64,000 bases of DNA from Psococerastis gibbosa (taxonomy: Eukaryota; Arthropoda; Insecta; Psocodea; Psocidae). This document shows, one piece after another, positions 3,067 through 57,573 of the stretch. Below the pieces are notes generated by a model. It saw nothing but the letters and a program-made list of their open reading frames with translations. It had not been told where the DNA came from and did not search any database. A program made the translations under genes and the position numbers. The stretch is from NCBI GenBank assembly GCA_963971405.1, contig OZ020491.1, forward strand, positions 21,632,855 through 21,696,854, in the 5' to 3' direction. The first letter of the stretch is position 1. The number at the start of each line of letters is the position of its first letter.

Positions 3067-5374
3067 TTATTTTATTTAATACAAGAGAAAGGTTGTATTG
3101 TTTAATAACTGAAGGAAATACTTATGAACATTAAAATATACAGGTACAATTTTGAAATATAATAAGAATTTTAATTCATGTGTCAACATCTAAGGGAGAA
3201 AAAATTGAAAACTCAACAAAAATATTAATTTATCAATTTGAGTTTCCCGCAAATTTTGGACTCATTTGTTTAAAAGACTTGAATATATTAGACTATATGT
3301 ATTATAATAATCCCAAATCGCCACGATCGGGCTGCAGAACATACAAACAATGGAAAGTAATCAAATTAGAAACGTAAATAAACGCTAAAAAAATTACATG
3401 TTTTGCTTTGAAGCCTACTGCTGTATATTGTAAAAGCAAGATGGTCAAAATTGTAATTACAGCTTCTTCCTCCGCACTACCTGTGTTTAGGCCTTATGAA
3501 AACGTTAGGCAATTACAAATTTACTTACGCCATAATATTTTTATTGATTTTGCTTCCAAAATTGGGCTAAATGTGAGGAATAGACATATTCAATACAGAT
3601 TTAAATGTTGTTGTTAATTTAATCCAAAAATAAACAGTCAATATTTTGATGTTTGCTGCTTCGAAGGTACGTGCTTCTCCAAACCATGCGGCTGCCGCCT
3701 GCCGAACAAGAATTTTTTTTTTTTGGGGGGAGGGAGTTGTGGGTCAATATAGGAAAAACGTAAGTAGTATCAATTAAAGCAGAGCGTAATAAATCATAAC
3801 TTTCAATATATTAACAATATTTTTTTTTTGGGGGGGGGGGGGGGCAACTATCCGTCCATGATGGGCTACACAGGCAGGTCAATTTTAATAATTTTACAAA
3901 AGACTATAAAACAGAATTGCCCCTCATCGCGAAAACTAACAATTTGTAGTGTAGGCCTACTTTTCTCCGTAAGTTAAGAACGGGGATGTGCTGCATCAAT
4001 GACGGTATATCTCGGGACGTTCTTTTCTGTTTTGGGTTTACTCAATTTTGGGGGATTTTACCACCCCCCCCCCCCGCGGCAAAAAAAGCTATTTTTTTTT
4101 TATTAATTTAAGGGCGCGAGGCCACGCTTGTGGCATATGCGCCAAGACTCTAAAGCTAAAAATTATTTCACAACAACGGCTTAACCTATTTTTTTTTTTT
4201 AATATTCACAAAGGCCTATATTATGGTATCATAATATATTGTGTAGTCGTTATCTGTGCGGTTAAAAGTTAGAATCTAGGTCACTTTTCCCTTGATATAT
4301 AGTTTGGTTTAGGGAAAAATACAAAAAAAAATTTCTAAAAAATCATAATTTGGTGGTTTTACTTTTATAAGCCAACAACTGCCTTATTCTCTCGGTCTCT
4401 TCAAATATATAGTATGGGGTGGAGTACCTTATTATGTATAACACCTTCTTCCACTATAAAATCTAGGTGGTTTTGAAAATACGACTTAACGCCCTCTTCC
4501 GCCGGGCCCTCCAATTAATTGGTAAGTTTCACTTCTATCATATCATAAGCATACACACCTTCTTTTAGTTCAAATTAGTTATAACTGCATAATCACAAAT
4601 GTGCAGTTAACCAAAATTTATAATAATTTTACTACTGGCACTATTTTCCTTCAATATTATGCATATCAGTGAAATTGAGGTCAGAGAGAAAGCGAAATGT
4701 ATGTGGTAGCCTTCCAACTTATATATACGGTACTGTATATAGTAATAGCTTAATTAGAATTGAACAAAATAGTTAATTATGGCTGGTGTTTAAACTCATG
4801 ACGTCACAGTTGGGCAACGAGCTATAACAAAAAATATCATTCGACTGTACATAATCATGGTTTTCGCATTTTTCCTTCCGCTATATTATTATATGTATCG
4901 TATATATATATATATATCGTAAATGACGTAGTGTAACGCATTATGCATCCACGGTTTGCCGCAGTCAGTGATTTTACCAATCAAAAAAGGAAACATAACG
5001 GCATTCGAATTCACATCTTTCGCTTTCAATTTAAGATAAAAACACCGGCAAAGTTACTTAAGGTTATTATAGCCTATATTGTGGCCATGTTTTTTTTTAG
5101 AGCTCAACGAATCTTGAATGAGTTGTTGTAGGCTACTTAATGAGTCTAAAAGGTTTCCCAACGAGCCTGGATTTTCAGTACAGGAACTGCATTAGAAACT
5201 TTTTACCTCTATGTTGATTAACTGATGATAGGAAGCAGGAAGCACCATTGGTTATAAGACATGTAAGCTCATCCTAACGACCAAGGTGAGTGAGTTTAGG
5301 AACAGACTATGTACTTGTATTTAGCCTGGGGTTGAGTTCTATATAGGAGAGATGGGACATTCAATGAAGACTCG
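3067..5374. other. Intergenic stretch, no gene seen
   Basis: AT-rich with homopolymers (poly-G near 3830, poly-C near 4064) and a TA microsatellite near 4900. Only short chance frames. Confidence 0.45.
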
Positions 5375-5495
5375 GGACCTCCTGCTTTACATGTCCTCTG
5401 AAGCATGGTCTGAAAATGTAGCAAGTGCGTGGTACTCGAACCATTAATCTTTCTGGTGAAATTCAGAGTGTATACCACTACACTATATATTCTGC
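5375..5495 (-). mobile_element. SINE-A partial copy
   Basis: The minus strand carries the degenerate head (GTAGTGGTATACACTCTGAA) and the CATGCTTCAGAGGACATGTAA body. Confidence 0.65.
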
Positions 5496-5594
5496 ATTTG
5501 TGATGCCAGCCACATATATACTGTGTATCAAAATGTGGAGAGGCGTTTCATCTATTTAGGTCCTCCTTCCAATTAATGATAGCTCTGACGTGTA

Positions 5595-5785
5595 GCTCTG
5601 CCATTGTAGAGCAAATAGTGGTACGGACTTTCCCCCCAAGGTCGTTTCCCACAGTTACTGCATTTTCTATGGCCTTAAGAAGACAGGCTACGAACAAAAT
5701 TAGCATTTAGAGGGCTTTATAGCCCTAACTCCGCTTGTTTGGCTGAGCAATAGAGCAATAAAGTCTTTACTAATAATAATGATCT
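5595..5785 (+). mobile_element. SINE-A degenerate copy
   Basis: A diverged head (AATAGTGGTACGGACTTT) and the conserved AGGGCTTTATAGCCCTAACT tail. Confidence 0.7.
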
Positions 5786-5860
5786 ACAATCGATATTTCC
5801 TGAGAAATTTGAGTTTGTGCAACTAAAAGGTTTTTCTCCACATTGCTAACCCTGGGCATT

Positions 5861-6252
5861 AAGAGTGTAAGCCCGTAGGAAAGTGGCAGCCCAAAATTTA
5901 ATTATTTTTATTTTTTATTTAATTAACTAAGCATGTTATTAAAGATTTGGCTCTTCAAAGTTGTAGAAGACTACTTCATGCATCATATAATAAGGAATTT
6001 TTCGTTTTTGAAATTGTAGTTTTTTTATAAAATCGATTATACTTGAAAAGTTATTGTTTATAAAATATTTGCACGTTTATGAAAAAACTACAATTTCGAA
6101 AATTAAAAATATCTTATAATATGATGCATGAAGTAGTCTTATACAACTTTGATGAGCCAAATCTTTAATAACATGCTTAGTTAATTAAATAAGAAATAAA
6201 AAGTATTAAATTTCGGTCTGCCAATTTCCTACGGGCTGTACCGTACACTCTT
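5861..6252. mobile_element. Foldback element (TAGGAAAGTGGCAG family)
   Basis: Long inverted arms: AGAGTGTAAGCCCGTAGGA and ACTAAGCATGTTATTAAAGA on the left, complements on the right. A right-half copy lies at 53715-53812. Confidence 0.78.
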
Positions 6253-6431
6253 GAAAACAATTTTTCATCAGATAAATTGTTCCAATAATTACATGGATTC
6301 CGTGAAATCCGGTTGCTATAAAGAATGATGAACCATAAATCGAGTCTGCAATTGGAGTTTACTGCTACAAAAAAAAAACGCGATATTAGCAACCCTGGAC
6401 CAACCCAGCATATACAGTACATATGTTTATG

Positions 6432-6976
6432 GGATCCGCGAGCATGTGCAACTATACTAGGTTTGGATAATTACAAGAATTTTTTACCAGGCAAATTGCT
6501 CACAAACGGTACTTTCCGGGTGAGAACGGGATATTGGCAACCCTGGGACAACCGCATCTTTTTTATTGGTACCGTATAACAAATTAAATATAAGCTGTTC
6601 CTCCGGATCCGAGCATGTGCAACTATTATAGGTTTTCTCTTCTCTAAAAATAACAAGCTATTTTTCACCAGGCAAACTGCTCACAAACGGTACTTTCCGG
6701 GTGAGAACGGGATATTGGCAACCCTGGGACAACCGCATCTTTTTTATTCGTACCGTATAACAAATTATATATAAGCTGTTCCTCCGGATCCGAGCATGTG
6801 CAACTATTATAGGTTTTCTCTTCTCTAAAAATAACAAGCTATTTTTCACCAGGCAAACTGCTCACAAACGGTACTTTCCGGGTGAGAACGGGATATTGGC
6901 AACTCTGGGACAACCGCATCTTTTTTATTGGTACCGTATAACAAATTAAATATAAGCTGTTCCTCCGGATCCGAGC
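6432..6976 (+). repeat. 181-bp tandem repeat, about three units
   Basis: Units marked by ACCAGGCAAA at 6486, 6668 and 6849 (period 181) and by GGATCCGAGCATG; each contains TTTCCGGGTGAGAACGGGAT. Ends 114 bases before the JHBP start codon. Confidence 0.9.
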
Positions 6977-7033
6977 AAGGCCGCCCTGTAGTTCCCGCTG
7001 AGACCATGATCTTGAAAGCCTTATGGACCGTTT

Positions 7034-7089
7034 TCTATAAGAGACTTAACTCTTCCGCCGCGCTCTCATAAACTAGTTTGTCACCCGCA
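7034..7089 (+). promoter_or_regulatory. Possible core promoter of the JHBP-like gene
   Basis: TCTATAA at 7034-7040 lies about 50 bases before the start codon, just downstream of the 181-bp tandem repeat. It is a TATA-like sequence only; no start-site evidence exists, and the true promoter could be in an upstream untranslated exon. Confidence 0.3.
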
Positions 7090-7183
7090 ATGGAGTGCGA
7101 AATCCGAAAAATGTGCCTAAAAGTACTCATAGCGGGAGTTGTGGTGGTGCTCACCTTATCGAATGTAGCTGATTCTAAGTTAA
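7090..7183 (+). CDS. JHBP-like gene exon 1 (signal peptide)
   Basis: Start codon at 7090. The encoded MECEIRKMCLKVLIAGVVVV is followed by more hydrophobic residues and a small-residue cleavage region (SNVADS). The donor GTGAGT is at 7184 and the exon ends in phase 1. A second Met eight codons in could also serve as the start; the first gives the longer n-region. Confidence 0.85.
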
Positions 7184-10100
7184 GTGAGTATACCTACATA
7201 AATTTTATGGAGTAGGCCTAGTAGTCAGTGTCGGGTTTAACTATGAAAAGGGCTCCCTCAACAAGCCGAAAAATGAAAAAGTCGATTTAAAAAAAAACAA
7301 AAAACTAAGGCAAATAAATAATCTTGTCGAAATATTTGGCGCGGGAAATTGGAGCGTGCCGTGGCATTAATGATTAGGCGCCCATTCCATTGACAGGCTA
7401 GGGCTATTTCCAAAAACGGTGACGTGGTAGCAGACATTGGAAGACTTAGGTAGCGTTTCCACCGACCTCGCATTGCAGATTGCAAATGACATTGACGGAA
7501 ATTAGAATTTTTCTTTTTATAGAAATCTATTAAAATGTTTGTACTTAACATATCCCATGACGCCATTTTTTAATTTTAGTTTGTTTGTGATTTTACTGTA
7601 TGATCATTGATCAATTTTAACTATGGCATAGAGGAAAATAAACATTTCCGTCAATTCTGCAATGCGAGGTCGGTGGAAACGCCACCTAAGTCTTGAATGT
7701 CTGCTACCACGTCACCGTTTTTGGAAATAGCCCTAGCCGGTCAATGGAATGGGCACCTTATCGAATGTAGCTGATTCCAAGTTAAGTGAGTATACCTACA
7801 TAAATTTTATGGAGTCGGCCTAGTAGTCAGTGCCGGGTTTAACTATACGGGGGCCGGGAGGGCCCCCACAAGAAAAGGGCTCCCACAACAAGCCGAAAAA
7901 TACATAAGTCGATTTAAAAAAAAACAACTAAAGCAAATAAATAATCTCGAAATATTTGGTGGGAAATTGGAGCGTGCCGTGGCATTAATGATTAATCGCC
8001 TTACTCTATTCTGTTCTATTTTGCATCCTGTGTCTCTATTTTATAAATGATAGTGGAATATTCGTGTAAAGGTTTTTCTGCCCACAAGGCCAAACCCGGC
8101 ACTGCTATAGTAGTATCTTTTGGCATAGTCCCAGACCACACGACACAAAAATATATATTTATATATATATATATATATTTTAGATAGGTAGGCCTAGCTA
8201 TAATAATACAAGTTGTTGAGGTTTTTATATATGAGAACTGAGAAGTCGAACGGAAGACTAATACCAGATTCCCACAAGCCATCTTGGAGCCGATTCGACA
8301 GTTGGGCTGGTTATCATTCCTTGTAAAGTATTGAATGTAATATGATTTAAGTATTTTAGCGTATTTAAAGTTAATATTAATTTTGCCATTTTATGTATAC
8401 TTCTCTTGTTGGAAAAAATTATAATAAATATATATATTTGATTTGATTTGATTCTCCTCTATGGGAGCGAAAGCTGGACACCTACAACAAGCTACGTGAG
8501 GGGGGGGGGGGTCATGGCCCCGTGACCCCCCCTACATAAGTAAATTCCTAAGGTAGTAAAAAAATTTAATTGAATAAAACTCAACTTTGCAACCAACAAA
8601 TTACCTTTTAAACTTGCATACAACTTCTGACCCCCCCCCTAAATTTTTCCATTGGATCCGCTCTTGAGCATATAAGCATCTTGTTGGGGTCTCCTTCTCC
8701 CTCAGCTGAATTAAAATTACGCAGGTACCGTAACCAGGCTCTAATTAGTAAATTAATATTTTTTCAGGTGATTACACGACAATATGCAAAGCAAAAGATC
8801 CAGAATTAGAGAAATGTTTAATCAGTTCCGGCCAAAAACTTTTCCTAGCAATGGAAAAAGGTGGGTTAGTCAAATTTAACTCTTCTTCTATACCATCTAT
8901 ACATATACAAGCCTACCTGTTCACCAGTAACCACCAGTATTCATTATTCAAACACCGTACCGTACAAGGAGTGGTAACAGCTGGGGTGATATTTCAACCA
9001 GCAGGCTGATCATAGCGATTATAATACCGGGGTTTAAATAATACCCTGGTATTAAATATCTAAACAAGATAATTTTATAATGGAAAGTGCTATTCAAAAT
9101 TCCTGCAGCAGCCTGATCATGGCGATTATAATACCGGTATTTATTTAATCCCCTGGTATTAAAATTGTAAACAAGATATTATTTTGTTAATGGAAAGTGC
9201 TATTCATTATTTGTTCGTTTAAATTTTAATACCAGGGGATTCAATAAATACCGGTATTACACGTATAATCGCCATGACCAGGCTGCAGCAGTAATATAAT
9301 AATAGCGTAATAAAGTGGATACCAAACTATAACTTATTCCCCGGGTTAAAATGTAAACAAAATACTTTTAGAATGCGAAGTGCTATTTTAAAATTAGTTT
9401 ATTTGCACATTTAACGCCTGGAATAAAACGTTAACTTGGTGATGCTGTCTTGTACTTCGGTTTCTGTACGGCTAGTTGAGGGTCGATTCAGGCTCGTAAC
9501 CAGGATTTTATTCCGGGGGGGGGCTGCTGTCCTATTGTATTGTAGTGAAATTTCACACGTCTGGAATGTTCAATTATATATCGTGTAAAGCCAATAAATT
9601 TGGACAGCCCCCCCCCCCCCAGTGGTTGCAGGCCTGGATGGTTCCGTTTCATTATTTCAATGAGGGGCCCAAAAATTACTCCAAAGTTGCTTTAATAACT
9701 GGCCTCCGAATACACATAGCCTATTAATACATTATTTATTTACTAGGTATTCCGGAGTTTGACATCAAACCCGTTGATCCAATGGCAGTTCCTCAACTGA
9801 GCATCCAACGGACAGAAATAGGAATGTCTTTAGTTTTATCCAACTCCACGCATCGAGGTTTGGCACAAGCCAAGATTTACCGCGCAAAGTAAGTTAAAAA
9901 AAAACGGCCGAATAAAACTAATCATGTCTCTATTATGTCTGATGTAAGAAGTAAGTAAGTAAGTAAATAGTATATTACAGTTTTTCTTGTACAGTTTACA
10001 ATGTCTACCCCAGTACTAAGTACTCAAAGAGACTTGTATCACTGGGGTAATTTCAAGAATACACTAAATTTTAAAGGCTTATTAGAGAACAATTACAATT

Positions 10101-13100
10101 ACTTACGGTCAAAATAGAAATATAAAAAACGATCAATATTATAATTAAGGCTCTGATTGAGCCGTAGTCAATGTAAATGTACATTTTAGAATATAAAATT
10201 AAATATTTACAGATGCTGGTCCAGTATAAAATATTTAAGAAATGTTAGTTTAAAAATACAAAATGGAGTTGAACAATTTAAGAATACTATATATAAATTA
10301 ACAAATTAAAATAACAGCAACAGTAAGTACATATAGGTTAAAATACCATTTAACATAATAAAATAACAGCAACAGTAAGTACGGTACATATAGGTTAAAA
10401 TACTATTTAAACATCTTAGCAGTGCAAATATAGCCTAATATAATTATTGGAATAGTAGCATTTTTAATGTTAAGTCATCACAGCCCGCTACGTATTCTTT
10501 CATTAATTTATAGTATTGCTTGTTTGGATTTCTTATAGATTTGAGGCCAGTTGGTAACGCATTAAATAATTTGCAAGCTATAAAATTTGGAGCATGCTCG
10601 TAAATAGTTTTCAATGCAGGTTGAGTATATATGTTATGCGATAGACGATGTCTTGTATTTATATGGTGTCTTTGCATTGAACTAACAATCAATTCGCCAT
10701 CAGCGAATGAACTATTAGGGGAATTTATTAGGTAATGTAAAAATAATTTTTAACCTTTAGGTCTAGATATCTTAAAATCTTATGGGTTCATGACTTATAT
10801 ACGAGTAATAATGCAATCATTTTAATGTAAATAAATCGCTTTTAGTTAAGCTATTTTCTATTATAATCCAGCTTCACTTTCCAGTAAAACTACTTTGTTT
10901 CGACTTGTCTCTAGATTTTGGCAAACTTCACAGATTCCAACTTTTCAGGAAGTTTGCAGCTATAGGAATAGGAAAATATATTTTCCTTTGGATCACACAA
11001 GTCGTTTAGCTATACCTATTTGAGGGAGGAACCACCAAGACACGGCCGTAGTCAGAATTGGGGGGGGGGGATCCATCTGAAGTCACCAAAGGTGAGATAG
11101 CCTCAATATATTTAAAACTCCATTCCATTTAGTGTACGCTGCAATTATTTCGTGGGGGAGGGGGGCGTCGCGAATTTTTTTAAAGAAGAAAACTACGCAC
11201 TCGAAACTGAATTTTAGTACATGATCGTGTGATTGTGCGGTCGCGAATTCGGTGGCAAGGTGGTAGAGTGCTTGTACTTGTGCGAGTATCATCACACCTT
11301 GCGGTCGGAGACGTGTCGCAACTCGACACAAGTACCTATTAGGTGACTTAGTGAGGTGATTGAAGAGGTTAATTGGATACATTCAATAACTTGTTTGTAA
11401 AACCCCCTCCCCCGATAATCTTTCCATACTACGTGGGAACCACCCTAAAAGATGAAGAACTGCTAAGGCTGGTAAAATTGTTTCTTCCTTGTGACTTTTC
11501 GTAACGACTTTTATCTCCGTTGCAGGGCCGATCCTATCAAGCGCACCATGGAGTTCCATCTAACTTTACCCTCATATTCCATCATCGGTCACTACAGTGT
11601 CAACGGCAAGGTCATGCTGCTGCCTATCAAAGGAGACGGACAAAGCAACATCACTCTATGTGAGCACAACTTCTGTTTTTATATATAGTCAAAAGGCAGG
11701 ACTTATATTTTACTCAAAAGCATCGATCATATCATCTCGACGGAAAGGTCATGCTGTTGCCTATTAAAGGCGACGGACAAAGCAACATCACTCTATGTGA
11801 GCACAACTTCTGTTTTTATATGTAGTCAAAAGGCAGGACTTATATTTTACTCAAAAGCATCGATCATATAACCTCGACGGAAAGGTCATGCTGTTGCCTA
11901 TTAAAGGCGACGGACAAAGCAACATCACTCTATGTGAGCACAACTTCTGTTTTTATATGTAGTCAAAAGGCAGGACTTATATTTTACTCAAAAGCATCGA
12001 TCATATAACCTCGACGGAAAGGTCATGCTGTTGCCTATTAAAGGCGACGGACAAAGCAACATCACTCTATGTGAGCACAACTTCTGTTTTTATATGTAGT
12101 CAAAAGGCAGGACTTATATTTTACTCAAAAGCATCGATCATATAACCTCGACGGAAAGGTCATGCTGTTGCCTATTAAAGGCGACGGACAAAGCAACATC
12201 ACTCTATGTGAGCACAACTTCTGTTTTTATATGTAGTCAAAAGGCAGGACTTATATTTTACTCAAAAGCATCGATCATATAACCTCGACGGAAAGGTCCT
12301 GCTGTAGCCTATTAAAGGCGACGGAGAAAGCAACATCACTCTATTTGAGCACAACTTCTGTTTTTATATATAGTCAAAAGGCAGGACGTATATTTTACTC
12401 AAAAGGATCGATCATATAACCTCGACGGAAAGGTCTCGATATCAATGGGTAGGGAACAGCTATATCACTGCTCTGTATTGTATATGCTAACGTAAGCGAT
12501 ACAATATTGTTGTTACGTAATATAGGACACATGGACTGCAGGGGCGAAGTAATGAACTAGTTTTGCATAGAAATCCAAAATTCCGGATGTAGACGTACAT
12601 TTACCAAAAGAAAGAACACACTATAGTTCTGATTTTTGAATATTAGGACATAATCTGATTGGTTGAACGGAAGTACATTCTTTAACGGAAGAGGTCCATT
12701 TAAAAATTCCTTAAGTGGATAAATAATAATGGAAGGCTTCACACATTTATTCTGAGCTATTTATGTATATTCCGCACTTTTTAAAATTTCAAAATGAAGC
12801 TGTGACTTTGGTGGCTACGTACTATACCCGAGCACAGTAGGATGACATTTGGAACACTGTGTTATTCAAAAACTTGCAACAGTGGAACACCGAGCTTATT
12901 CGGTTTTGACTAGTGTCAAAAATGTCATTCTGTCGTTGTCGGGTCCTAGTTCCTATGGTCCAAAACAGGTAGCAAACATTTTTAGTATGTCTTTAATGTC
13001 TGCTAAAACGTCAATACCACATTTATCATTGACCATTGACGTATGTGGAAACCCCGCCTAAGTTACAAAAATATTTTCTCATGCAGACACACAAAACAGA

Positions 13101-15529
13101 TACACAGTATTTAAAAAATAGTCTTGTTTGTTGCGGGTAATAATTAAACACCAATTTTCAAATTATAGAAATGATAATTTACACTATATACATGGGTTAA
13201 TAAAATTGTAGGAGAAATTCGCCCATATGGAAAATAAAAGAAATTTCTTTCTTTCTTACTTATACACTAGAATATACCCAGGCCCGATTTGCCCCCAGCC
13301 AGGCTCCATTGGGGGCCCACCGACAATAGAAATAAAAGTTAAGGGCAAACCGGAGTCGCCGATATTCCATTTTCTGTTCAAACTTCAGTTTCTCATTAAA
13401 TATGGAATCGCAGAACAATGAAAAAATGCTGAATGGAAAGAAGAATTTTTTCTCCTAATTTTGATGTATAGTATGTGGCCTTACCTAACCCCAATTCGCC
13501 ACAGTTGATGAACTCCTTCAGCTTGAACTCCTGAGTGACCGTTATTTTTTGCGTATCAAGTTCACTAACTATAGCCAATCGGTATTGATGATTGCAACAT
13601 ACTATATATCAAAATTAGGAGAAAAGATTATTAATTCCATTCAGCATTTTTTCATTGTTCTGCGTTGCATATTTCATGAGAAATCAAAGTTTGCACAGAA
13701 ATGGAATATTGGCAACACCGGTTTGCCCTTAAATGATATTAATTTTCCGGTAGATGACCTTGATGTAACATGGAAACTATATGGGGAACAAGACGTTCGT
13801 GGAGGAGTCGACTACATGAAACTAAAAAGCCTGGAAGCCAAGATTCAGCCGAAACTCATGAAGGTCCACTTCGAAAATCTCTTCAGTGGAAACAAACTTC
13901 TTGGTATGTTCAACAAACTCAGTTAAAAGTTAAAAGATTCCTTTTCCCGCGCAAAATAGCCTACCGGCATAACATTACTTTGGAACAATCGAAGGGGCAA
14001 TGCCTTATGAGTGTTAACAACAAATATCTCACGAAATAGCAATCGTGGAGCTTTCAAAAATATCAGATCATTTCTGATTCAGAACAAACAGAAGACCTAA
14101 CCAGATCTGTCTTTACTTATGGGGGGCTCTAGAGTTCTATATAGGAGTGGTGGGGCAATCACTTCCCCCAAAAATATATTTTAAATTTCTCAGGCCAGCA
14201 CCAGTTCCAGGTAGCCTCAGGATTAAGATAAGATAAGTCTATATTGCACCTATTTTCAATACAATAGCGTATATAATAAATAATAAATGTTAATTAATTA
14301 ATTAATTAAAAAAAAAACATTTTGCGCTCTCAAATAGTAATAGTTTCTTTATTGCACTAGGCTCCCCTAGCGGAGTTAGGGCCTTCGGGCCCTTTCTTAC
14401 ACTCAACTAGGGGGCTAGTTAATTAGTGTTACAAAGCTATAAATACAAAAACAATTGCAAATACCCAAAAAATTATAAAACTCGTTCACACATTCATTCA
14501 CACATGGAGAGCGAAACCATGTCAGATCTTGGCGAATCTAGTGTATTAGCCTAATTAGATGCACCCGATAGCGAACTTTGAAAATTGGACGAGAGGGAGA
14601 TTCTTTTATGTGGGTGGGGAGAGAGTTCCATAGGAGAACTGACGAGACGAGGAAGGAGGCATGAAAGGTTTGGGTTAAATGAGTAGGTATAACGAGAAGA
14701 TCGTCCCTTCGAGTATTGTAGTGACGGTTTGACAGAGGCTGAAAACAAGGACCGAAAGTATGAAGGAGCAAAGCCATTGAGGAGATAAATGCCCCATCTC
14801 TCTTAAATAAAACGCTAGTTCTGAGGAGGCTGCCTCTTCATTCAAATCAAATATATATTTATTCCAATTTTGCAACAATACAAAGTATACATAAAATGAT
14901 AAATTGTACCACTAAAATTAAATTAAGCTATATTACATTAAAATTTTTACGAGGAATTAACCAGCCCAACTGTGTTTCCACGTGCTAGGGCCGGTGCAGT
15001 GTTTCAATTTAATTCAGATTTGTTATGAAATTCAATGTAATGAGCTTTTTGAGATTATTATTCCCCATTTCACCATAATAATCGATATATCTCCATATAC
15101 GAGTACCTAGGTAGTGTAGAGGTAAGGATACTATCTTTCACCAGAAAAGCTGTTGGTTCGAGTCTCACACTTGCTACATTTTCTAGCCATGATTCAGAGA
15201 CCATGCAAAGCAAGCGGTCCCATGCCTTCCTAGTTGACTCTAAGAGAGGGGCATTTTGCAGGTTTGTTAAGTAATGAACAAAACTGTCTAACATAAATTT
15301 AAACCCTTGCTGGCCGTGCATGCGTTAATTTTAATTAACTTTGATGAGACTTTTATTTTATGCTTTTTTTATAGGAGATACGATGAACAACCTTTTAAAT
15401 GACCAGTGGAAAGAAGTTTTCCGGAAAATTCAACCCCCGCTTGAGAAGTCTTATTCAAAACTCATGCTGAAATTCGCTACAAAAATATTTTCTAAAACAC
15501 CTTACAATGAGATTTTTTCTGATAACTAA
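7090..15529 (+). CDS. Takeout/JHBP-family secreted lipid-binding protein (6 exons)
   Basis: Spliced gene; coding exons 7090-7183, 8768-8860, 9747-9888, 11526-11659, 13754-13913 (true donor at 13904, so exon ends 13903) and 15375-15529. All junctions are GT-AG, the phases agree, and the total is about 255 residues, the usual takeout length. Seen: a hydrophobic N-terminal signal peptide (about residues 9-29), two N-terminal cysteines in TICKAKDPELEKC, the family patterns PEFDIKPVDPM, NGKVMLLPIKGDG, NITLYDLDVTWKLYG and VHFENLFSGNKLLGDTMN, and the typical C-terminal end KIFSKTPYNEIF. Family knowledge: such proteins form an elongated hydrophobic tube that binds lipids or hormones and are secreted; several take part in feeding, circadian or mating physiology. 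The ligand here is unknown. Odd: part of exon 1 and part of exon 4 are duplicated inside the gene. Confidence 0.93.
7155..7376 (+). repeat. Duplicated segment copy 1 (exon 1 end, donor, intron start)
   Basis: Runs from TTATCGAATGTAGC in exon 1 to GATTA in the intron. It is repeated at 7758-7996 with small differences, and the two copies are separated only by a composite MITE. Confidence 0.88.
7377..7757. mobile_element. Composite Tourist-like MITE, TSD TTA
   Basis: Long terminal inverted repeats (GGCGCCCATTCCATTGAC... and its complement GGAATGGGCACC), flanked by TTA at 7374-7376 and 7758-7760. A second MITE (7449-7686, ends GGTAGCGTTTCC / GGAAACGCCACC) sits in its centre. The TWA target and GC-rich ends fit the PIF/Harbinger (Tourist) group. 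Confidence 0.85.
7758..7996 (+). repeat. Duplicated segment copy 2
   Basis: Copy of the end of exon 1 with its splice donor (TTAAGTGAGTATACC) and following intron. It has about 30 extra bases near 7847-7875. A second usable-looking donor is therefore present in intron 1. Confidence 0.88.
8768..8860 (+). CDS. JHBP-like gene exon 2
   Basis: Acceptor TTTTCAG before 8768 and donor GTGGGT at 8861. It encodes DYTTICKAKDPELEKC and the following helix, including the two cysteines that form the conserved N-terminal disulfide in this family. Phase 1 at both ends. Confidence 0.9.
8990..9291. mobile_element. MITEs of the CTGCAGCCTGATC family (partial plus full)
   Basis: Full element 9104-9290 with ends CAGCAGCCTGATCATGGCGA / GCCATGACCAGGCTGCAGC; a left-half copy abuts it from 8996. 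A more diverged copy may extend to 9430. Confidence 0.78.
9747..9888 (+). CDS. JHBP-like gene exon 3
   Basis: Acceptor TTTACTAG and donor GTAAGT (9889). It encodes the IPEFDIKPVDPM region, the hallmark start of the first beta sheet in takeout proteins, and the following VLSNSTHRGLAQAKIYRA. Phase 1 in, phase 2 out. Confidence 0.9.
10444..10700 (-). pseudogene. Non-LTR retrotransposon 3' coding stub
   Basis: Minus-strand frame with RHHINTRHRLSHNIYTQPAL and NFIACKLFNALPTGLKSIRN, the conserved C-terminal tail of LINE polymerases (Asn-Thr-Arg ... hydrophobic-Phe/Tyr-Asn-x-Leu-Pro). The 3' UTR probably runs to about 9960. Confidence 0.65.
11225..11392 (-). repeat. Family-E repeat
   Basis: GTGGCAAGGTGGTAGAGTGC, TCGGAGACGTGTCGCAACTC and GGATACATTCAATAACTTG. 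The A/B-box-like spacing hints at a tRNA origin. Confidence 0.6.
11526..11659 (+). CDS. JHBP-like gene exon 4
   Basis: Acceptor TTGCAG and donor GTGAGC at 11660. It encodes ADPIKRTMEFHLTLPSYSII and HYSVNGKVMLLPIKGDGQSN. Its last 49 bases, the donor and 88 bases of intron are the first unit of a 137-bp tandem array running downstream. Splicing at any later donor would run into a stop codon (TAG at 11686), so the first donor is the functional choice. Confidence 0.9.
11611..12432 (+). repeat. 137-bp tandem array made of exon 4 end plus splice donor plus intron
   Basis: Six units start at 11611, 11748, 11885, 12022, 12159 and 12296. Each has 49 bases matching the end of exon 4, the donor GTGAGC, and 88 intron bases. 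Units 2-5 are almost identical to each other. Unit 6 has lost its donor (GT to TT) and gained a TAG. Confidence 0.95.
12965..13061. mobile_element. Partial Tourist-like MITE (right half)
   Basis: Matches the central hairpin and right end of the 2887-3028 element (GTAGCAAACATTTTTAGTAT to GGAAACCCCGCC); the left end is missing. Confidence 0.75.
13338..13733. mobile_element. Foldback element in JHBP intron 4 with captured exon-like fragment
   Basis: Left arm (AAGGGCAAACCGGAGTCGCC... to CCTAATTTTGATGTATAGTA) matches the complement of the right arm ending GGTTTGCCCTT. The centre is not palindromic and reads as a minus-strand exon (13485-13568). Confidence 0.7.
13485..13568 (-). pseudogene. Exon-like fragment carried in the foldback element
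   Basis: On the minus strand an 84-base open segment lies between TTGGCTATAG and GTAAGG, encoding SELDTQKITVTQEFKLKEF then INCGELGL. It has coding-like composition, unlike its AT-rich arms. The parent gene was not recognised. Confidence 0.4.
13754..13903 (+). CDS. JHBP-like gene exon 5
   Basis: The acceptor CCGGTAG joins the T left from exon 4 to give Tyr-Asp-Leu-Asp, matching the family pattern after NITL. It encodes VTWKLYGEQDVRGGVDYMKL through VHFENLFSGNKLLG. Donor GTATGT at 13904. The open frame visible upstream of 13754 is intron read-through inside a foldback repeat. Confidence 0.9.
14336..14412 (-). repeat. SINE-A tail fragment
   Basis: The minus-strand tail with the GAGTTAGGGC...GCCC hairpin only. 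Confidence 0.65.
14538..14830 (-). pseudogene. Non-LTR retrotransposon 3' coding stub
   Basis: Minus-strand RHYNTRRDDLLVIPTHLTQT and LLWNSLPTHIKES are the LINE C-terminal pattern (YNxR ... LWNSLP). In JHBP intron 5. Confidence 0.68.
15103..15262 (+). mobile_element. SINE-A 5' part
   Basis: Head GTAGTGTAGAGGTAAGGATA, B-box GGTTCGAGTCTC, body up to the AGTTGACTCTAAGAGAGGGG motif, in JHBP intron 5. Confidence 0.75.
15375..15529 (+). CDS. JHBP-like gene exon 6 (C-terminus)
   Basis: The acceptor TTTTTTATAG restores Gly-Asp-Thr-Met-Asn. It encodes the C-terminal helix (LLNDQWKEVFRKIQPPLEKS) and the family end KTPYNEIFSDN, followed by the stop codon TAA at 15527. Confidence 0.92.
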
Positions 15530-15593
15530 TCCCTTGTAATTTGGTCTAATTTATTAATTTATTTGTTGTTAATGTTGTTGTTAGTGTCTTTTA

Positions 15594-15599
15594 AATAAA
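15594..15599 (+). terminator. Polyadenylation signal of the JHBP-like gene
   Basis: A canonical AATAAA lies 65 bases past the stop codon, at the end of a T-rich stretch. It is the first AATAAA after the CDS. Confidence 0.6.
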
Positions 15600-15853
15600 A
15601 AATAATAATTACAAATATTAGTTTAATCCATTTTAGTCAGAACCTTACTTTCACGCGAGAAGCTACGAGCTCGTATGCATCAGCGGACTTTTTTCTAGCT
15701 CTTTGCCGCTTTTTGCAAACAACTCTCAAATTGTAGAAAACATTTAGTTCATACTCCATAGGCCTAAATTAGTCCTATTCCTCTGTTCCTGGATTGTTAT
15801 CCTTGCCTGTAACTGTATATTGTAGTATATAATAATATATATTTGTAATATAG

Positions 15854-16077
15854 TGAACCAGTAGAATCCGGGCTGATGGGCCGTGGTCGATATGAAAGTG
15901 AACTTCCAAACGTTTCGTCAACATCTGCGGTCGACATCTTAGCGAGAGCTACGGAGCCACCGATGTGCAACCTTCGAAGTCTACGCAGCGCCACTGAAGA
16001 TGTCGACCGCAGATGTTGGCGGAACGTTTGGAAGTTCATTTTCATATCGCCCATCAGTCCGAATTTTACTGGTTCAT
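15854..16077. mobile_element. Foldback element
   Basis: TGAACCAGTAGAATCCGGGC to the complementary right end; inner arms carry AACATCTGCGGTCGACATCT. The left end sequence recurs near 16540 (CAGTAGAATCCGGGATGA). Confidence 0.75.
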
Positions 16078-17939
16078 CATACTCCGGCCGTGAAAGCTTT
16101 TGCAGTTACATTATACTAGTATCGTACTGGGATAAAGCAGCATAAAAAAGAACTGTTTTCAAAAAAATTCTTAGTTGTCATGCTGACGGCAAATTAGACA
16201 GCAATAAATTTCAAGAACCACATTTAGAAGAGAAATGCCAGCTGCAGTTAAAATGTCTCGACAATTAAATGTTTCGGCGACAGACTGACTAGCCCATTTT
16301 CTTCAACAAAAATGTATTGTTTGTTCAGTTCATTCAACGACATTATTAAGTTTTTCCCATTATTTTATTCTTTTTTAGTATAAATTCTACCATTTTCGAA
16401 TCATTGACTAAACCGACGTAGGCGCCACCAGCTTTAGGAATAGGTGTGGCAAGAACATACCGTACTCGCAGGTTATGGCCACGCGCACATAAATAGGCTA
16501 TATATTTACAAAGGCTTTCACGGCCTCAGTTGCATGATGAATCAGTAGAATCCGGGATGAATTACTAAAGTTGGGGGGGGGGGGGGCAACTACCCCCCTG
16601 TATCCGTCCATGGGTCCAAAAACTTTAATGAGTCTTAACCTCGGACACAAAAATGTAAAGTATAGCTCTCAATTCTGTGCAATTAAACTTTGTACAAAAA
16701 ACGAGTACCGGTAGCTTGAATTCGCTCTTAACTTATTTGTTCATGCTCCATACAAAACTGTATAGGTTCCGACCCTGGCGACCAGATCTGTTCTCTAATT
16801 ATGACCTTGGGACAGGAGTCAACTTCCTACCTCCGGACTGAACACACGTCAGTAAGTACATTGCGGCACATATTCCTTTTTACGATCAAATAGCTCCCTA
16901 AACGGTTATTTCCGTTTCTACTCTCGTGTATATTACTAAATCATGCAATAAGGGTCTATTTAACAGTTTAACTAGTAATTTTACAATATCAATAATTAAT
17001 GCAGCCTATACGGCATATTTTTAAAATATTTCTGTAGCCGACACTGGGATAGAGCATTAAAATTTTTTGTCCATCTTCTTACTGAATAAAAAATTGCTAG
17101 ACGCAATAAAATCGACAGATGCAGCCAGCATGGCAATAGTTTTAGCTGCCCCTTTGGTTATCTTCTTAAATTTTTTGGCGGGAAAAAACTTTAGGTATAT
17201 AGGTATAGGAAGTGATGAAAAATTGTGGTTTTAGACATTTCATTTATTTATATATTTTTATTTCAATATCTTTTTTTCAATTACAAATGACAGTTACAGT
17301 TGATGAGCAACAGTACAACACTGAACCATTTCGTAACACGCTTCTTTCAAATATCGTTTGGTACCACACAGGAAAAAGTTGTAATATACAAGTCAAAAGT
17401 CATTTCCTCGTGGAAAATTCTATATACGATTGCTAAACTATATAGACTACTCAACAGACTTATTAATTGATTAATTAACATACGATTTTAGGATAGCCCT
17501 TAAACATCCTTGTTGAGGAACTACCCTCAGGCAGTTACACCTTAGCGAGACCCAAAGCCAGTGTCGGATTTACCACTATGCAACTGAGGCAAGTGTCTAA
17601 ATGTACGCGCGTGAAGTGTCCGCGTCCGCGCGCACATTAAATATTTTTTGTGTGCATTTTATGTAAAAAAAATATATACAGTATATTATTATTTTAACAT
17701 TTTACCTAGTTAAGGATATGAAAGTATACATCCGATAGTTATTAATGTCCGCGGCAAGGGCAGTGCCAATATCCGCACAAAGCCAAATCCGCCCCTGCCC
17801 AAAACCCGAGATTACCACGGAAACCGAGAAAAGATATTTTTAGATAAGATAGTAGAGACTGGAGACGAACTGGGTTACCGGTACAATGAATCCATATGAC
17901 TACAGAGCCGACGTGTGAATATCCAAAGGTTTGGACAGC
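16078..17939. other. Region between JHBP and FGGY genes, no gene seen
   Basis: A poly-G run near 16576 and the duplicated segment at 17036-17124; otherwise low-complexity AT-rich DNA. Confidence 0.45.
17036..17124 (+). repeat. Copy of the segment before FGGY exon 1
   Basis: GTCCATCTTCTTACTGAATA ... CGACAGATGCAG matches 18886-18978 at most positions. Confidence 0.75.
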
Positions 17940-18111
17940 TGCAGCCTGATCGAGGCGATTATAATACTGGGGTTAAATAAATACCCTAGGATTATAACTG
18001 TAAACAAACAAATTTTGAATAGCACTTTCCATTATAAAATTATCTTGTTTACATTTTTATTACCAGGGGATTAAATAAATACCGGTATTATAATCGCCTC
18101 GATCAGGCTGC
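17940..18111. mobile_element. MITE of the CTGCAGCCTGATC family
   Basis: GCAGCCTGATCGAGGCGATT and its complement bound a 170-base hairpin with TAAATAAATACC...CCAGGGGATTAAATAAA. Confidence 0.8.
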
Positions 18112-18329
18112 AGGAGCTATGAATCCTGGCGTCACGCCGTGCAACGAATATTATCTGTGAAGTTTGACTTGGTAAAAATAAAACATTTTTGGGCTTCTGT
18201 TTCTGAATAGCTTAAATTACGCGGGATCCTTTTAAGAGCAATTCGGACAACCCCATCCCTACTAGTTTTTGGTGGTACCAAGTTGAAATTTACAAGAAAT
18301 ATTCATTGTCGAGCATTAAATCAAGTCAA

Positions 18330-18530
18330 GACATGTAGCGTAGTGGTACGGACTCTGACTTTCACCCGAAAGGTTGTTGGTTCGAGTCCCACACTGGCTA
18401 CATTTGCTTCGGAGGGCATGTAAAGTTGGCGGTCCCGGGCCTTCCTAGTAGAGTGTAAGATAGGGCTTTATAGCCCTAACTCCGCTAGGTGGCTTAGCAA
18501 TATAAACAACAAAAATTCCTTATTTAAATC
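18330..18530 (+). mobile_element. SINE-A, near full length
   Basis: Best intact copy: ACATGTAGCGTAGTGGTACG, GGTTGTTGGTTCGAGTCCCA, the GGGCTTTATAGCCCTAACTC hairpin and tail AATATAAACAACAAAAATTC. The tRNA-like A and B boxes are RNA polymerase III promoters. Confidence 0.88.
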
Positions 18531-18584
18531 GTTCGATAATGGCCCATTTAACATTTTCACGGGTAGTTTTACAATAAATAAATA

Positions 18585-18665
18585 AATAATGACTTTATTT
18601 TTGGCTGAAACCACCCTAGTGGAGTTAGGGCCATAAAGCACTCTCTTACACTCAACTAGAGGTCA
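18585..18665 (-). repeat. SINE-A tail fragment
   Basis: Tail hairpin GGAGTTAGGGCCATAAAGC on the minus strand, 55 bases after a + strand copy. Confidence 0.65.
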
Positions 18666-18885
18666 GAAATAAACTCAGTAAGATTACAATTTACGGTACA
18701 TTTCTCTCCAATTACTATTAGGTACCTTAAAACTAAATAAGGACTCACTCACTCACACACACAAGCATGGGGTGGTTCGAATAAATCCTAGCCTACGATA
18801 TTATATTTGAAATAACTACAATACCTATAGTATATTCAATACAGTCAGTGCCGTACATTATAAAAAGATTGTTGAGTCTTAGCAG

Positions 18886-18978
18886 GAGCCGACCCTGGGA
18901 TGTAGCATTACATTTTTTGTCCATCTTCTTACTCAGTGACAAATTGCTAGACGCATGCTACAAGCTCGACAGATGCAG
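18886..18978 (+). repeat. Segment just upstream of FGGY exon 1, duplicated at 17036
   Basis: GTCCATCTTCTTACTCAGTG ... TCGACAGATGCAG; ends 33 bases before the start codon. Confidence 0.75.
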
Positions 18979-19011
18979 TCTTTACCACCGATTTCCTCAT
19001 TCTATTTCAGA

Positions 19012-19188
19012 ATGGATTACTTCCTGGGCGTAGATGTAGGCACGGGCAGTGTAAGAGCCGCGCTTGTCCAAAAAGACGGGAAAGTGGTAGCGTCTGAGGC
19101 GCACCCCATAGCAACATGGAATGAGCGCACGGACTACTTCGAACAAAGTTCAGACGATATTTGGAATGCTATTTGTAAAGTTGTCAAG
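19012..19188 (+). CDS. FGGY: FGGY exon 1
   Basis: ATG at 19012, two bases after a good acceptor (TCTATTTCAG), which suggests an upstream 5' UTR exon. It encodes the [17 protein letters not shown] motif. Donor GTATAC at 19189, phase 0. A TAG trinucleotide repeat starts 13 bases into the intron. Confidence 0.88.
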
Positions 19189-19203
19189 GTATACAGATGA
19201 ACT

Positions 19204-19259
<56 letters not shown>

Positions 19260-22200
19260 TTCGTCGGGTTAATAACGACTTAGGCCTCATTTGGGCCCAT
19301 AGAGCGTTTGGTTTAGGTGGCGGTATATACTATTGTTTATTTGCACTAATGTAAGATTTTGAGTGTTTCTACTTTGTAACGATTGGCTGCACCACGTGCT
19401 AGTAGTAGTATGGCTGGACACAGTCCCAGGCCACGAACAGTTCACTTAGTGTGTAGTAGTAATGTTCGTCGGGTTAATAATGACTTAGGCCTCATATTTG
19501 GGCCCATTGAGCGATCAAGTAAAAGAAGACGCAGGAGCAATATCATATCAAGAACTGAAGAGGAAGATCGAGGACCGAGTAAACTGGAGGACGATATGCA
19601 GGGAGTTGCTGCCAACCAATCGCTAAGATTGTAACCTTAAGAAGAAGAAGAAAAGCGATCCCGACTTGACTGTCCTATGCCAGCCCATAGGACAGTGGAC
19701 CTTCTGAATATAGTGGATTCCGAACCACTTGGGAAACACAGTGAAGTCACACGATTAGTTCGGAGGTGACCAGACCATGTTTCCCTACCGGCACTGTGCA
19801 CACTACCAAGTTATCTGCAGCTTTGAACCTGCTCTGGTCCGCTGGATTCAACTTGGTATGGCGGCCGGTCAGATGAACTTATAGTAACGTACAGTATAAT
19901 AAAGATACCCAGTTATGCATATACAATAGATACTATACGTGTTAGAGAAGTAAATACGCTCTTTCAAGTGAAAATACAGAATGCGTACCTACTAAACTAA
20001 AAAGAGGTGCACCAGTCAAAAAGGATCTCCTATAATAGTCCAGTACTAGACCGTATTGTAGTACAGTAGGCGTGCGACACACTATAGTTGACCCTCCGAA
20101 CTATTGTACGATGCTTAATTAGTATGGCTCCATTACTGAAAAGCAACATAGTGATGTCATTGACTGCATACTGTACCGAACTGAAATGATAAAGTAAAGT
20201 AAATTCGTGTCGGGGTGGTACTACCCGTGGTACAGGAGTTTTCAGGTTGCATCAACAGCCTCCTGTTTAACCTATCGACAGTCAGGGAAGACTGCCGGGA
20301 CCGCCGGCTTTACATGCCCTCCAAAGCATGGTAGTCAGAAGATAAATAATTGTACCACTAAAAAATTTTGACATTCGGGTGGGACTCGAACCAGTCACCT
20401 TCTGGATGATAGTCCGAGTCGTTACCTCTACGCCATTCTGACTACTGAACTGATACCTAATAATTAATCAATTATTGATGTCTTCTATTGCATGTAGTGC
20501 AACTATGCACCGGCTAGTATAGGCTGTGGGTTGAAAAATAATTAAGATATAATTTAAGATTTAATTTAAGAATTTAGGCTACAATAATATAATATTTTAA
20601 GGCAACATTAGAATAATAAATTTACATATTATATTATATTATACATTCTATTATTTATTCGACAGAAGGAATATTTGTATTATTTTATGTTTATTTTGAG
20701 CATACAGTATATACGATTTGAATCTGTATTTTGGTATATTATATAGGCTATTACATGTTCCAATTTTTCTTCGACCCATATTTAATGGATCAAATATTGG
20801 AACAATAATAGTGTTTAATCAGGGGGATTATATTAAGACTTATATTTTAGTTTGTATTGTATTTTGTTAAAGAATAAACTCGACGACTCATAGCCTATAT
20901 TGGTTTCAGCGTGTATCTCAATCAGTGACCCCAGATGAAGTCAAGGGCATCGGTTTTGATGCTACTTGTTCGCTTGTGGCCATTGACTCCAAAAATAAGC
21001 CTCTTACTATAAGCCCATCTGGTAAGTTAAATTTTAGATTCAAAGAACTAAGTAAAGCCATAAAATTTGGAAATGGAAAACCAAGAGGTCTGGAATAGCC
21101 TCCAGTGTAGGGGGTTCGAATTTTACACAAAATAGTAGGTTTTTAGCCATTTTAGCTGTGAAGTCAATTGGAGCGAGAAATAACACAGTTAAAATTAGAA
21201 TTGTTATCCTAAAGGAGCGTTACCATGACGTCAAGATAAAAAATATGAAAAAAGTACATTTGAGTAATGTAACAAAAAAATTCCTCGAAATAAATTATGG
21301 AGCACTCTTATAGTTTAGGAAGTTGCTCGTCGAATAAAACATTTGAAGTGAAGAATATCGGACATAAAGTATTCTATAACGTTATAGGAAGCATATTAGA
21401 ATTTGCTCTAAATAATGGTCTTAAATTCCAGGGCTATTTTTATTATTAAAAAAGGTTAAATCGCATACAAATAATTTAATGAATGTATCCGAATAACCTC
21501 TTCAATGGCCTCACTAAGTCACCTAATAGGTACTTGTGTCGAGTTGCGAGTTGCAAGCACGCTACCACCTTGCCACCGAAGTCGCTTACTAGTCGCTCGT
21601 ATAATTGAAAGTGTGAAAACAAATTTTAGGCAGAGATGAAAGAAATATCATCTTGTGGATGGACCACCGAGCCGCAGAGCAAGCCAAAATAATCAACAGT
21701 ACAAACCACCGCGTGCTGCGATACGTGGGAGGAGCCATATCCCTGGAAATGCAAACGCCCAAACTGATGTGGCTGCGCGAAAATCTGCCGTCCACCTGGT
21801 CCAGGGCTAAATATTTTTTTGACCTCCCCGATTATCTCACTTGGAGAGCAACTGGTGATGAAACTCGGTGGGTATACTGTACAACAATGTAGGTTGCAGC
21901 AATAAGAATATAAAGCTCTGCCTTTATAATGAAGTTAGCCAAAACAACATGAATTTTTGTTTACGCCGTTATTTAAATGCAATTTTAGACGCGGAAGTCC
22001 ATCGAGTATGCGAGTAGTATGGTCGCAAATTGCGGAACCGACTTAGAGTTCTGTATTGGAGAGATGGGACATTCCAACGCGCCAATACTTTTTTGCACCT
22101 ACTTTTTTTTACGTAGCACCTTTTTACAATGGCTGGTCATATAGGAGGTGTGGCGAGGGGCCCCAGAAATTCAAAAAAATATAATTGGTCGAAAGCGAAT

Positions 22201-25200
22201 GCCTATACTCACCTACATAAACCTACCGACATGCATTTCGTCCTTCAAGTACTAGTACTTCAAAACGCACAATTTTGTTGAAATCTGGAAATCAAACTTT
22301 TCGACGACCATCACAAAGCTTTCATTTATATATTGAAAGAAAAGGGCAAAAAAATAAATCGCTTTCTACTCTAATCCCTCAAAAATTTCAAAATACATCA
22401 CTGACCCCTGATCAGAGTTGTTCCTGAATGAAACGTGATATCGCATGAAGCAGCCATAGGTATACATATATATTCTATGTAAAAGCCAGTCCCCGCTCAG
22501 ACACCTCACCCCGCACTGGCACCTCAAACATACCATAAACACGTCTCAATTCCAGGCTTCTTTTCCACTAGGCCTCATGCAACCTTTCGAAACAATGTCA
22601 TGTTTTGTTGCAATCTTTTTTTTTCGATTTTTTTGATTCGAGCTTGCGGTAGATTTATCATTTAACTCCAAAGCTAACAAAGCATACATATTTTCAACTT
22701 AATTAACGACTGAATTAGTAGCAGGTATCTACCTAGACAGGTACAGCTCAACAATGGCAATACGAATGGTTTCTTTACTATTTCCAGATCATTATGTTCT
22801 GTTGTGTGTAAATGGACATATGTCGCCGGACCTGATCATCATGAAGGCTGGGATAGATCTTACTTTGAGTTAACGAATTTGGAGGAGCTTTTGGATAACG
22901 ATGCCGCGAAAATAGGTAAATACATAAATAATTATTACAATATTGAATACAATTTATATAATTTAGGGGGGGGGGGGGTTAGCGGACAGATTCAGTGGAT
23001 TATAACATTAAAAAACATTATTTATTTCTAATTCCCACTGTAAACCCATTTTTATCTAGTGTAAGTTCATTTCATTTGGGGGGGGGGGGGGGTCGAGACC
23101 TCCTGACCCCCCTAAAATCCGCCCTTTATTGTTTACAGCCTGCAAATGAGCTATTGAATGTGCAAGACGTTATCGCTACTAAATAGTATAGGCTAACCAT
23201 TAAAATTTATTTACACAAAAGGTTCCCCTTGAAATGTTGAAGCCAATTTGCCCCCCCCCCCTGGGCGTATGACCTTGTGGATGCAACTGGGGTCGTTGTT
23301 ATAACAACCCGAATTAGTAAAACCCAAATAATCGTTAAGAAATTAACTTTGTCTAAGAAACCCACTTGTGTTACTATAAAACCCTGAGCGCTTTCGGCAA
23401 GAACTGCCATCTACAGAGGGAAACCCACTAGAACAGTTACACCTTATCTGCGATTTGAGACTTGCTCAACTCGAGGAGAAGATGCAAATGTGACTAGGGA
23501 GAGGAAACCTTGGTTTATATAGGACTGGGAGCGGGAGGAGGAGGGGGTGGGAGGGGGCGTGGCTGGTTACCTATTCCTAACCTACTAGCTAGATCTATTA
23601 GAGGGGATGATTGTGTGAATGATTGTCGTTTGTTAATTTTTCCTTATTGTGTAAAGCTCATTTGATTTCAACATTTTCAAAAAATTTAAAGTGTAACTTT
23701 TCTTTATTTTGTGTAGGGCTGTCCAATTGTGAGGATTGAATGTGTGTTAAGGGGTTTCCCGAATGAAAATTTACAATTAAAATTTTACAATTAAAAAAAC
23801 AAACAACATTTTAATAAACAAAAAAGTTTTTGTTATTTTATGTTTATTAAAATGAAATACCACGAAGTCACGAGTAATCTAATTATTTATGTTAAAACAG
23901 CTAGTCTTGCTGAACAACTCAAAATCTATAGGAAACTTAAAGAAAAATTCGCCATTGCTTCACTTAACCTCAAATTTAACCAAGATTGCAAAAGACTTAG
24001 AATCACTCCTAAATACATCCAAATTAAAACAGCAACCTTTTCCACACAATCCAATAAAGCACTTAGAATCACTCAGAAAGTCTGGCTAGCAGAAGAAATC
24101 AAAAAATGGTTCAAAATCAGAGACAGCATAAGCCTTTACCTTAAAGTTTTACATTCAGAATTATCTTTCAAACTTCACTTTTTTGAATGGACCACCTTCC
24201 AAGATCAAATATACACAAAAATTGGTGGCATCACTTACAAAAAACGCACAACACTAAATAAAAAAATAAAAGAACAGAGTCAAAACCAAAATAACAAATC
24301 CAATTGAATACATCACACGAAACATCAGATGCGCGAGACGCACGTGAGTTCCCGGTCTAACCCCCTTCATCGATCGATGCAGACTGGAGTAGGCAAGGCC
24401 TCACGCCTTCAGCGCAGACACTCACTACACTACCCATCACAACACATAAATTCTATCCTCGTACCGTCAACTTATCTAACACGATTTTCAACACAAAAGA
24501 AGTGGAACTTCTCAACAAGGGCCTCAAGTATTTCCCCGATATAGGTCTAAACAAAAACACGTTAACCAACTTAATGTCAGACACTGAATTTAGCCTAAAA
24601 AACCACAATAATGAAAAACACATACCAGCAGATATTCTGAAAAACGTCAAACTTACACACAAAAACGATAACACTAAATCTATAAAAAAGAAACTAGCCC
24701 AAGATAACCTTACACTCACCAAGGCGGATAAAGGAAATTCTATTGTCATTTTACCTACCCAAGATTATGTTTCTAAAGTCTTAGACCTCATTTCTGACGA
24801 ATCCACATTCGTAAAACTTAAAGTAGACCCCACAAACTAATTCCAAAAAGCAACAAAAAAAGCCATTAAACAAAGTTCTAATACGATACCTCAAGATATA
24901 GCCTATAAATTTACCAACATGAACCCCGTAGCTCCTTCATTTTTTGGTCTGGTTAAACTTCATAAACCCAATCAACCTATCCGCCCAGTAGTTTCGTATA
25001 ACAGTGCCCCAGCCAGCAAAGTAGCTAGTTTTCTCAACAAACACATTCGCGAGCTATCAAACTTCACACCCCGCCACAGCGTCAAAAACTCATTCGAGTT
25101 GGTTTCCCGCCTTAAGCACCTTTCCTTATCCAACAATGCCAAACTCGTCTCTTTCGATGTCAAAAATCTGTTTACTATTATTCCCGTACCCGAAGTACGT

Positions 25201-57335: not shown

Positions 57336-57425
57336 TATTTTTATAACTGTAGTTGTCAGAATTCGCACTAAAAGTAAGATATATATATATAATATTACCT
57401 ACTTTTTTTAATTATTAGGATTGCC

Positions 57426-57573
57426 ATGGAGACAGCTGCAGCCTCAGAAAATGCTGCTTCAGCTGGAAATTTACTTGCACCACCACCACCCACTCTTAGA
57501 AGAAAGCCCTCAATCGCTGCTAAGGTCAGCAAAAAATTCAGCGATGTGAAGAAATCACTGAAGAATAAGCAAG
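57426..57573 (+). CDS. KChIP-like exon 1 (variable N-terminus)
   Basis: ATG at 57426 in a good context (GCCATGG), seven bases after an acceptor-like TTATTAG, which implies an untranslated or alternative upstream exon not visible here. The N-terminus is alanine-rich, then PPPPTLRRKPS and a lysine-rich stretch. Donor GTAAAA at 57574, phase 1. Confidence 0.8.

Follow-up and report, generated by a model that had tools for sequence, protein, structure and literature searches.

The window analysed here, a stretch of 64,000 nucleotides from the insect Psococerastis gibbosa (contig C19, 21632855–21696854, plus strand), carries a takeout/JHBP gene whose fourth exon runs into a tandem repeat (Table 1). 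Exons 2–6 join into an open takeout/JHBP protein frame without interruption, and the JHBP domain spans the whole mature protein. The joined protein matches the Pfam JHBP profile (PF06585) with an E value of 3e-68 and 230 bits over profile positions 18–238 of 239, and its best phmmer match among solved structures is takeout-like protein 1 (3e8t, 1.2e-20). Candidate exon 1 was taken as the most hydrophobic ATG exon of fitting phase upstream of exon 2; an in-frame ATG further upstream, at 7090, ties with its start, and the codon split between candidate exon 1 and exon 2 would read AGT. From the exon borders of the gene model, introns 3 and 4 measure 1637 and 2094 nt. The intron that follows exon 4 is shared across the family, with a donor GT at the same codon and in phase 1 in 18/18 paralog exon-4 regions examined. 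These 18 regions, used for both the profile and the donor comparison, remain from 20 that were fetched, L081 and L082 having been left out as not exon-4 matches. Genome-wide, PF06585 gives 96 exon-sized matches, four of them in the array gene and most of the others on contigs C14 and C15.

Table 1 Features of the takeout/JHBP gene and of the 137-bp array (window coordinates)
Feature	Position	Strand	Basis or remark
Candidate exon 1, signal peptide MCLKVLIAGVVVVLTLSNVADSKL, phase 1 donor GTGAGT	7111..7183	+	predicted from sequence
takeout exon 2	8768..8860	+	gene model; JHBP PF06585 match of joined protein
takeout exon 3	9747..9888	+	gene model; JHBP match
takeout exon 4, 134 nt, entry phase 2, exit phase 1	11526..11659	+	3′ 57–59 bases form the exon part of unit 1
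Six full repeat units in register	11601..12422	+	units 2–5 identical; TRF and unit alignment
First donor, GTGAGC	11660..11665	+	codon position and phase as in the paralog exon-4 donors
TAG stop in the frame of exon 4, reached by transcripts passing the first donor	11686..11688	+	frame reading
Donor copies 2–5, GT at 11797, 11934, 12071, 12208	11797..12213	+	unit alignment
Sixth donor copy, destroyed: TTGAGC (TT for GT)	12345..12350	+	CTGTAG also in exon part of unit 6
Terminal partial copy, 13 bases, CGACGGAAAGGTC	12423..12435	+	unit alignment, near-repeat comparison
takeout exon 5	13754..13903	+	gene model; JHBP match
takeout exon 6 with stop codon	15375..15530	+	gene model; JHBP match

The array is a real tandem repeat. 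TRF, run on the window, resolves a 137-bp period with 6.1 copies and 97% matches at 11603–12435, in agreement with a preliminary description of this DNA in which the last part of exon 4, its GTGAGC donor and adjoining intron bases formed a 137-bp array. The takeout/JHBP identity of the gene, the exon border, the donors and the stop codon were likewise correctly placed there. The six repeats that it counted are present as full units, to which we add the partial copy at the array end; its division of the unit into 49 exon and 88 intron bases is replaced by 57–59 exon bases (11601/11603 to 11659) and 78–80 intron bases. The junction of exon 4 and intron 4 therefore lies inside the repeat unit, and head-to-tail units cross it, as in a minisatellite placed on an exon–intron border. 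When the unit was searched in the 409-Mb assembly (68 contigs), 6/6 matches fell inside the array; very common words were skipped in this search and only the best candidates were scored.

Units 2–5 show no difference over all 137 bases. Unit 1 departs from unit 2 at eight columns (11602, 11607, 11620, 11628, 11634, 11685, 11733 and 11735), and unit 6 carries seven differences, six of them private, which include the change of its donor from GT to TT and the new TAG in its exon part. At column 11685, units 1 and 6 carry A and units 2–5 carry G. Because both edge units share the A, the G probably arose later, among the inner units.

GTGAGC donors are intact in five of the six units, and the unit alignment places them where the preliminary description had them. 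The 25 bases on either side of the donor (11635–11684 in unit 1) are common to units 1–5, so that donors 1–5 can be told apart solely by position or by more distant sequence. Donors 2–5 would lengthen exon 4 from 134 to 271, 408, 545 and 682 nt, respectively. The truncation proposed earlier for read-through past the first donor holds for each of them: use of any one places the TAG in the message and shortens the partial open reading frame from 224 to 132 residues.

Donor strength was scored with a matrix of 21 donors, comprising the 18 paralog exon-4 donors and three other donors of the array gene. The array donor (TAT/GTGAGC) scores 2.78, compared with leave-one-out scores of 3.40–12.20 for the 21 reference donors, and a smaller matrix that uses 14 of the 18 paralog donors (without L069, L078, L079 and L080) gives 2.33 against 4.27–11.88 for 17 donors. 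Since the 21-donor set is small, only the direction of this result is safe: the array donor is weak for the takeout family. Ten of the 105 GTs in 11527–13754 outscore it, the highest at 12984 (9.98) and 13470 (9.08). A donor this weak leaves room for other sites to compete and speaks against the first donor being used exclusively; leaky use of later donors, followed by decay of the message, is possible. U1 duplex energies, a crude measure in which shifted pairing was allowed, were set aside in favour of the matrix. Folding gives unpaired probabilities of 0.0004–0.0009 at the five intact donors against a median of 0.018. An RNA structure that hides the donors was nevertheless rejected: when shuffling was applied to the flanks of the first donor, 57/200 shuffles were at least as closed. 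Rfam families gave no matches at the gathering threshold in 5000–20000.

We regard it as probable that the array is a neutral minisatellite lying across the boundary between exon 4 and intron 4 of a takeout gene in working order. The gene has an open and complete frame along the JHBP profile, and the assembly-wide matches to the unit all lie in the array. From this architecture, splicing would use the first donor and the other copies would leave with the intron. The first donor is expected to win because introns 3 and 4 are both long and because it yields the shortest exon; among near-equal donors, the upstream one has the advantage where the introns on both sides are long (PMC9225289). Messages made from later donors contain the stop and would be removed by nonsense-mediated decay (NMD), which would make the array tolerable. 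There is no sign of selection for the later donors, since units 2–5 are identical throughout and unit 6 has both lost its GT and gained a TAG; the pattern that we had set as the mark of a decoy, preserved donors in otherwise drifting units, is not seen. The preliminary description had left a splicing switch, a decoy array and neutral expansion side by side. The last of these is favoured by identity over whole units, by the differing edge units and by the lost last donor, and neither a switch nor a decoy gained positive support from tests on the array sequence.

The edges of the unit suggest how the array may have arisen. Exonic TCAACGGCAAGGTC (11600–11613) and intronic TCGACGGAAAGGTC, the latter about 78 bases into intron 4, form a near-repeat with 12/14 matches. 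It is the terminal partial copy, taken with its preceding T, that gives this match to exonic TCAACGGCAAGGTC, and the copy stops where the 14-mer match between exon and intron stops; a near-repeat as good occurs in 8/60 shuffled introns. A tandem duplication that joined TCAACGGCAAGGTC of exon 4 and TCGACGGAAAGGTC of intron 4 would have doubled the intervening 137 bases. Unequal exchange may then have multiplied the unit to six copies and made the inner ones alike, whereas the units at the two ends, being least often replaced, would have kept their differences. Identical inner units with diverged edges are the usual trace of unequal exchange in tandem repeats. With mutation rates of 6e-9 to 1e-9 per site and year, the upper 95% bound on the age of the inner-unit spread is approximately 0.9–5.5 million years if the four inner units have been unchanged since.

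The coding part of the unit complicates this origin. Over the 57 coding bases 11602–11658, exon 4 and the array copies show five differences, four of them silent (binomial P 0.012; codon 11599 (V/L) was left out, as it lies left of the TRF array), which is as expected if protein selection acts on the first copy only. The silent divergence, four of approximately 13 sites, exceeds the intron divergence of 3/77 (Fisher P 0.0075), an excess not expected from one recent duplication. Should the intronic 14-mer be the source of the two left-edge differences, the coding differences that are left would be silent in 3/3 cases and the excess would be smaller. All five coding differences lie within 11602–11634 and are followed by 50 identical bases, the chance of at least five of eight differences in the first 34 columns being 0.022.

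An alternative that would account for this pattern is that the founder was an older, diverged duplicate of exon 4 rather than a fresh exon-plus-intron piece, that it was amplified later, and that the array was partly converted onto the last 25 bases and donor of the real exon. The units read YNLDGKVMLLPIKGDGQSNITL in frame, where the first junction has YHL, and in units 3–6 the codons left of the 14-mer, Y-N-L, fit the profile of 18 paralog exons better than 998/1000 shuffles (2/1000 as good). The silent excess and the switch from diverged to identical sequence at 11634/11635 point the same way. Against this, the rest of the open frame of the unit (QDLYFTQKHRS) fits the paralog profile no better than shuffles do (726/1000 as good), and the anchored DNA extension depends on scoring, with 6–53/300 shuffles as good. 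Nor does a close paralog present itself as the source of the unit, identity being at most 43% among the listed matches outside the gene. As the tests were picked after the sequence was seen and partly overlap, we keep an older founder as a rival on origin, one that we consider a serious but doubtful candidate and that is compatible with neutrality today. Homology between the intron part of the unit and the 5′ half of exon 4 was tried separately and rejected, its local alignment being at chance (563/2000 shuffles).

On function, the main competitor of neutrality is a contest for U1 between the first donor and its four extra copies, in which the leaks go to NMD and the number of units sets takeout output. 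The identical 25-base flanks of units 1–5, the weak donor and the stop that follows use of each of donors 2–5 are all consistent with it. Identity spans whole units, however, and the donor of unit 6 is lost; the first donor should be the one preferred under exon definition (PMC9225289), and folding does not set that donor apart, given the shuffles described above. Such a function is therefore unlikely, and its stronger form, in which five weak donors compete, NMD removes the leaks and a unit number that varies between individuals tunes the takeout level, is less likely still.

We think it very unlikely that the extra copies serve as downstream U1 sites aiding recognition of the first donor. 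That donor is weak, and in human PAH exon definition can be strengthened by U1 bound downstream of a natural donor (PMC5933811), but the PAH site lies approximately 17–20 nt downstream whereas the next array copy is 137 nt away. An artefactual unit number has slightly less to recommend it: four identical units (548 bp) would be open to miscount in a short-read assembly, but six contigs of 34.8–53.6 Mb suggest a long-read or scaffolded one, units 1 and 6 are distinct, and the whole array is shorter than 1 kb. Least probable of all is that the units act as alternative in-frame exons, with the TAG-ending tract as acceptors (11688, 11825 and so on) and 108-nt exons of 36 codons, phase 1 to 1; the 108-nt frames are open behind the pyrimidine-rich tract FKRQDLYFTQKHRSYNLDGKVMLLPIKGDGQSNITL, but such a frame is unremarkable because 2/6 AGs examined in one unit already give stop-free frames divisible by three, the gap between donor and acceptor within a unit is only 29 nt, the novel 5′ residues are not JHBP-like, and only the 3′ part is recognisably homologous to exon 4, unlike a cassette or mutually exclusive exon. 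As regards a new intron spliced between copies, the proto-site AAAG/GTCATG recurs in register, but no pyrimidine tract was read before its AG.

Repeats of this class do not look rare in this genome, although the base rate is rough because the sample consists of takeout loci. Takeout loci on other contigs, 152,541 unique bases in all, contain one TRF array of period at least 40. It lies downstream of a paralogous takeout exon 4 (L068 795–2289; C15:5507687–5509181), comprises 163 bp × 9.2 with 97% matches, and is also resolved as 325 bp × 4.6. The window itself has four TRF rows of period at least 40, of which two reach 2.5 copies or more: the 137-bp array and a second minisatellite at 6479–6977, upstream of candidate exon 1 (181 bp × 2.8, 97% matches). 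Given tens of thousands of splice donors per genome, some should be hit by chance.

Intron 4 has recently changed at both ends, with the array at one and a MITE-like fold-back element at the other (13331–13740; arms 13409–13514/13559–13664 and 13331–13372/13699–13740). Among the 40 of 1102 candidate copies of this element that were scored, the full-length ones elsewhere are 93–96% identical to 13400–13750, and most stop near 13732, which leaves some 20 bases to the acceptor of exon 5. Further along the window, and named by eye from translations, are FGGY-type carbohydrate kinase exons (18940–30725), retroelement frames with a reverse transcriptase and a GIY-YIG-like end, Penelope-like in appearance (23795–26232), and EF-hand exons resembling neuronal calcium sensor/Kv channel-interacting protein (57393–63067). 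A perfect TAG trinucleotide run of 18.3 copies (TRF) occupies 19204–19258, just after the probable first kinase exon frame.

The array belongs to a known kind, tandem repeats at exon–intron borders. Human segmental-duplication genes with internal tandem repeats (De Grassi & Ciccarelli 2009, PMC2812944) are described as sharing with it a recent minisatellite expansion over an exon–intron border that is able to alter splicing. The human repeats average 30-bp units × 4 and have RNA-supported novel introns or alternative forms, whereas the insect array has a 137-bp unit, sits on the donor side and is described here from sequence. Similarly, a potato RdRp gene (PMC4974935) carries a tandem duplication over a splice junction with signals copied from the parental junction; there the duplication is on the acceptor side, has two copies and gives an RNA-seq-supported new intron, while the array is on the donor side, has six copies and is expected to give no new intron. 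Intron gain in Drosophila by tandem duplication of proto-splice sites (PMC2891723) resembles the array in the duplication and in the premature stops, which that study reports in 18/18 sequences of inferred duplication introns together with a proposed role for NMD. In Drosophila, exonic duplication produces a new intron, whereas the array copies fall in an existing one. Sheltering of weakly spliced new introns by NMD has also been proposed in Drosophila (PMC2809761). The study of near-equal 5′ splice sites cited above is alike in that position decides between donors of near-equal strength, and differs in being a database study of alternative sites with plasmid tests, where the array offers five identical natural donors. 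Searches of open-licence papers, most of them judged by title and abstract start, brought up neither a donor-side array in which five donors are intact nor a donor array in a takeout gene; PMC11215311 names takeout for behaviour and in its references.

As a repeat, then, the array is ordinary, and its value lies in offering a clean experiment of nature on how position governs the choice of donor. With five donors that share identical 25-base flanks and differ in position, the junction reads of one insect would gauge the position rule of exon definition, and the same reads would gauge the extent to which NMD protects arrays of this sort. Whether the exon part in a message comes from unit 1 or from a later unit could be told from the silent differences that separate unit 1 from units 2–5 (11607, 11620, 11628 and 11634).
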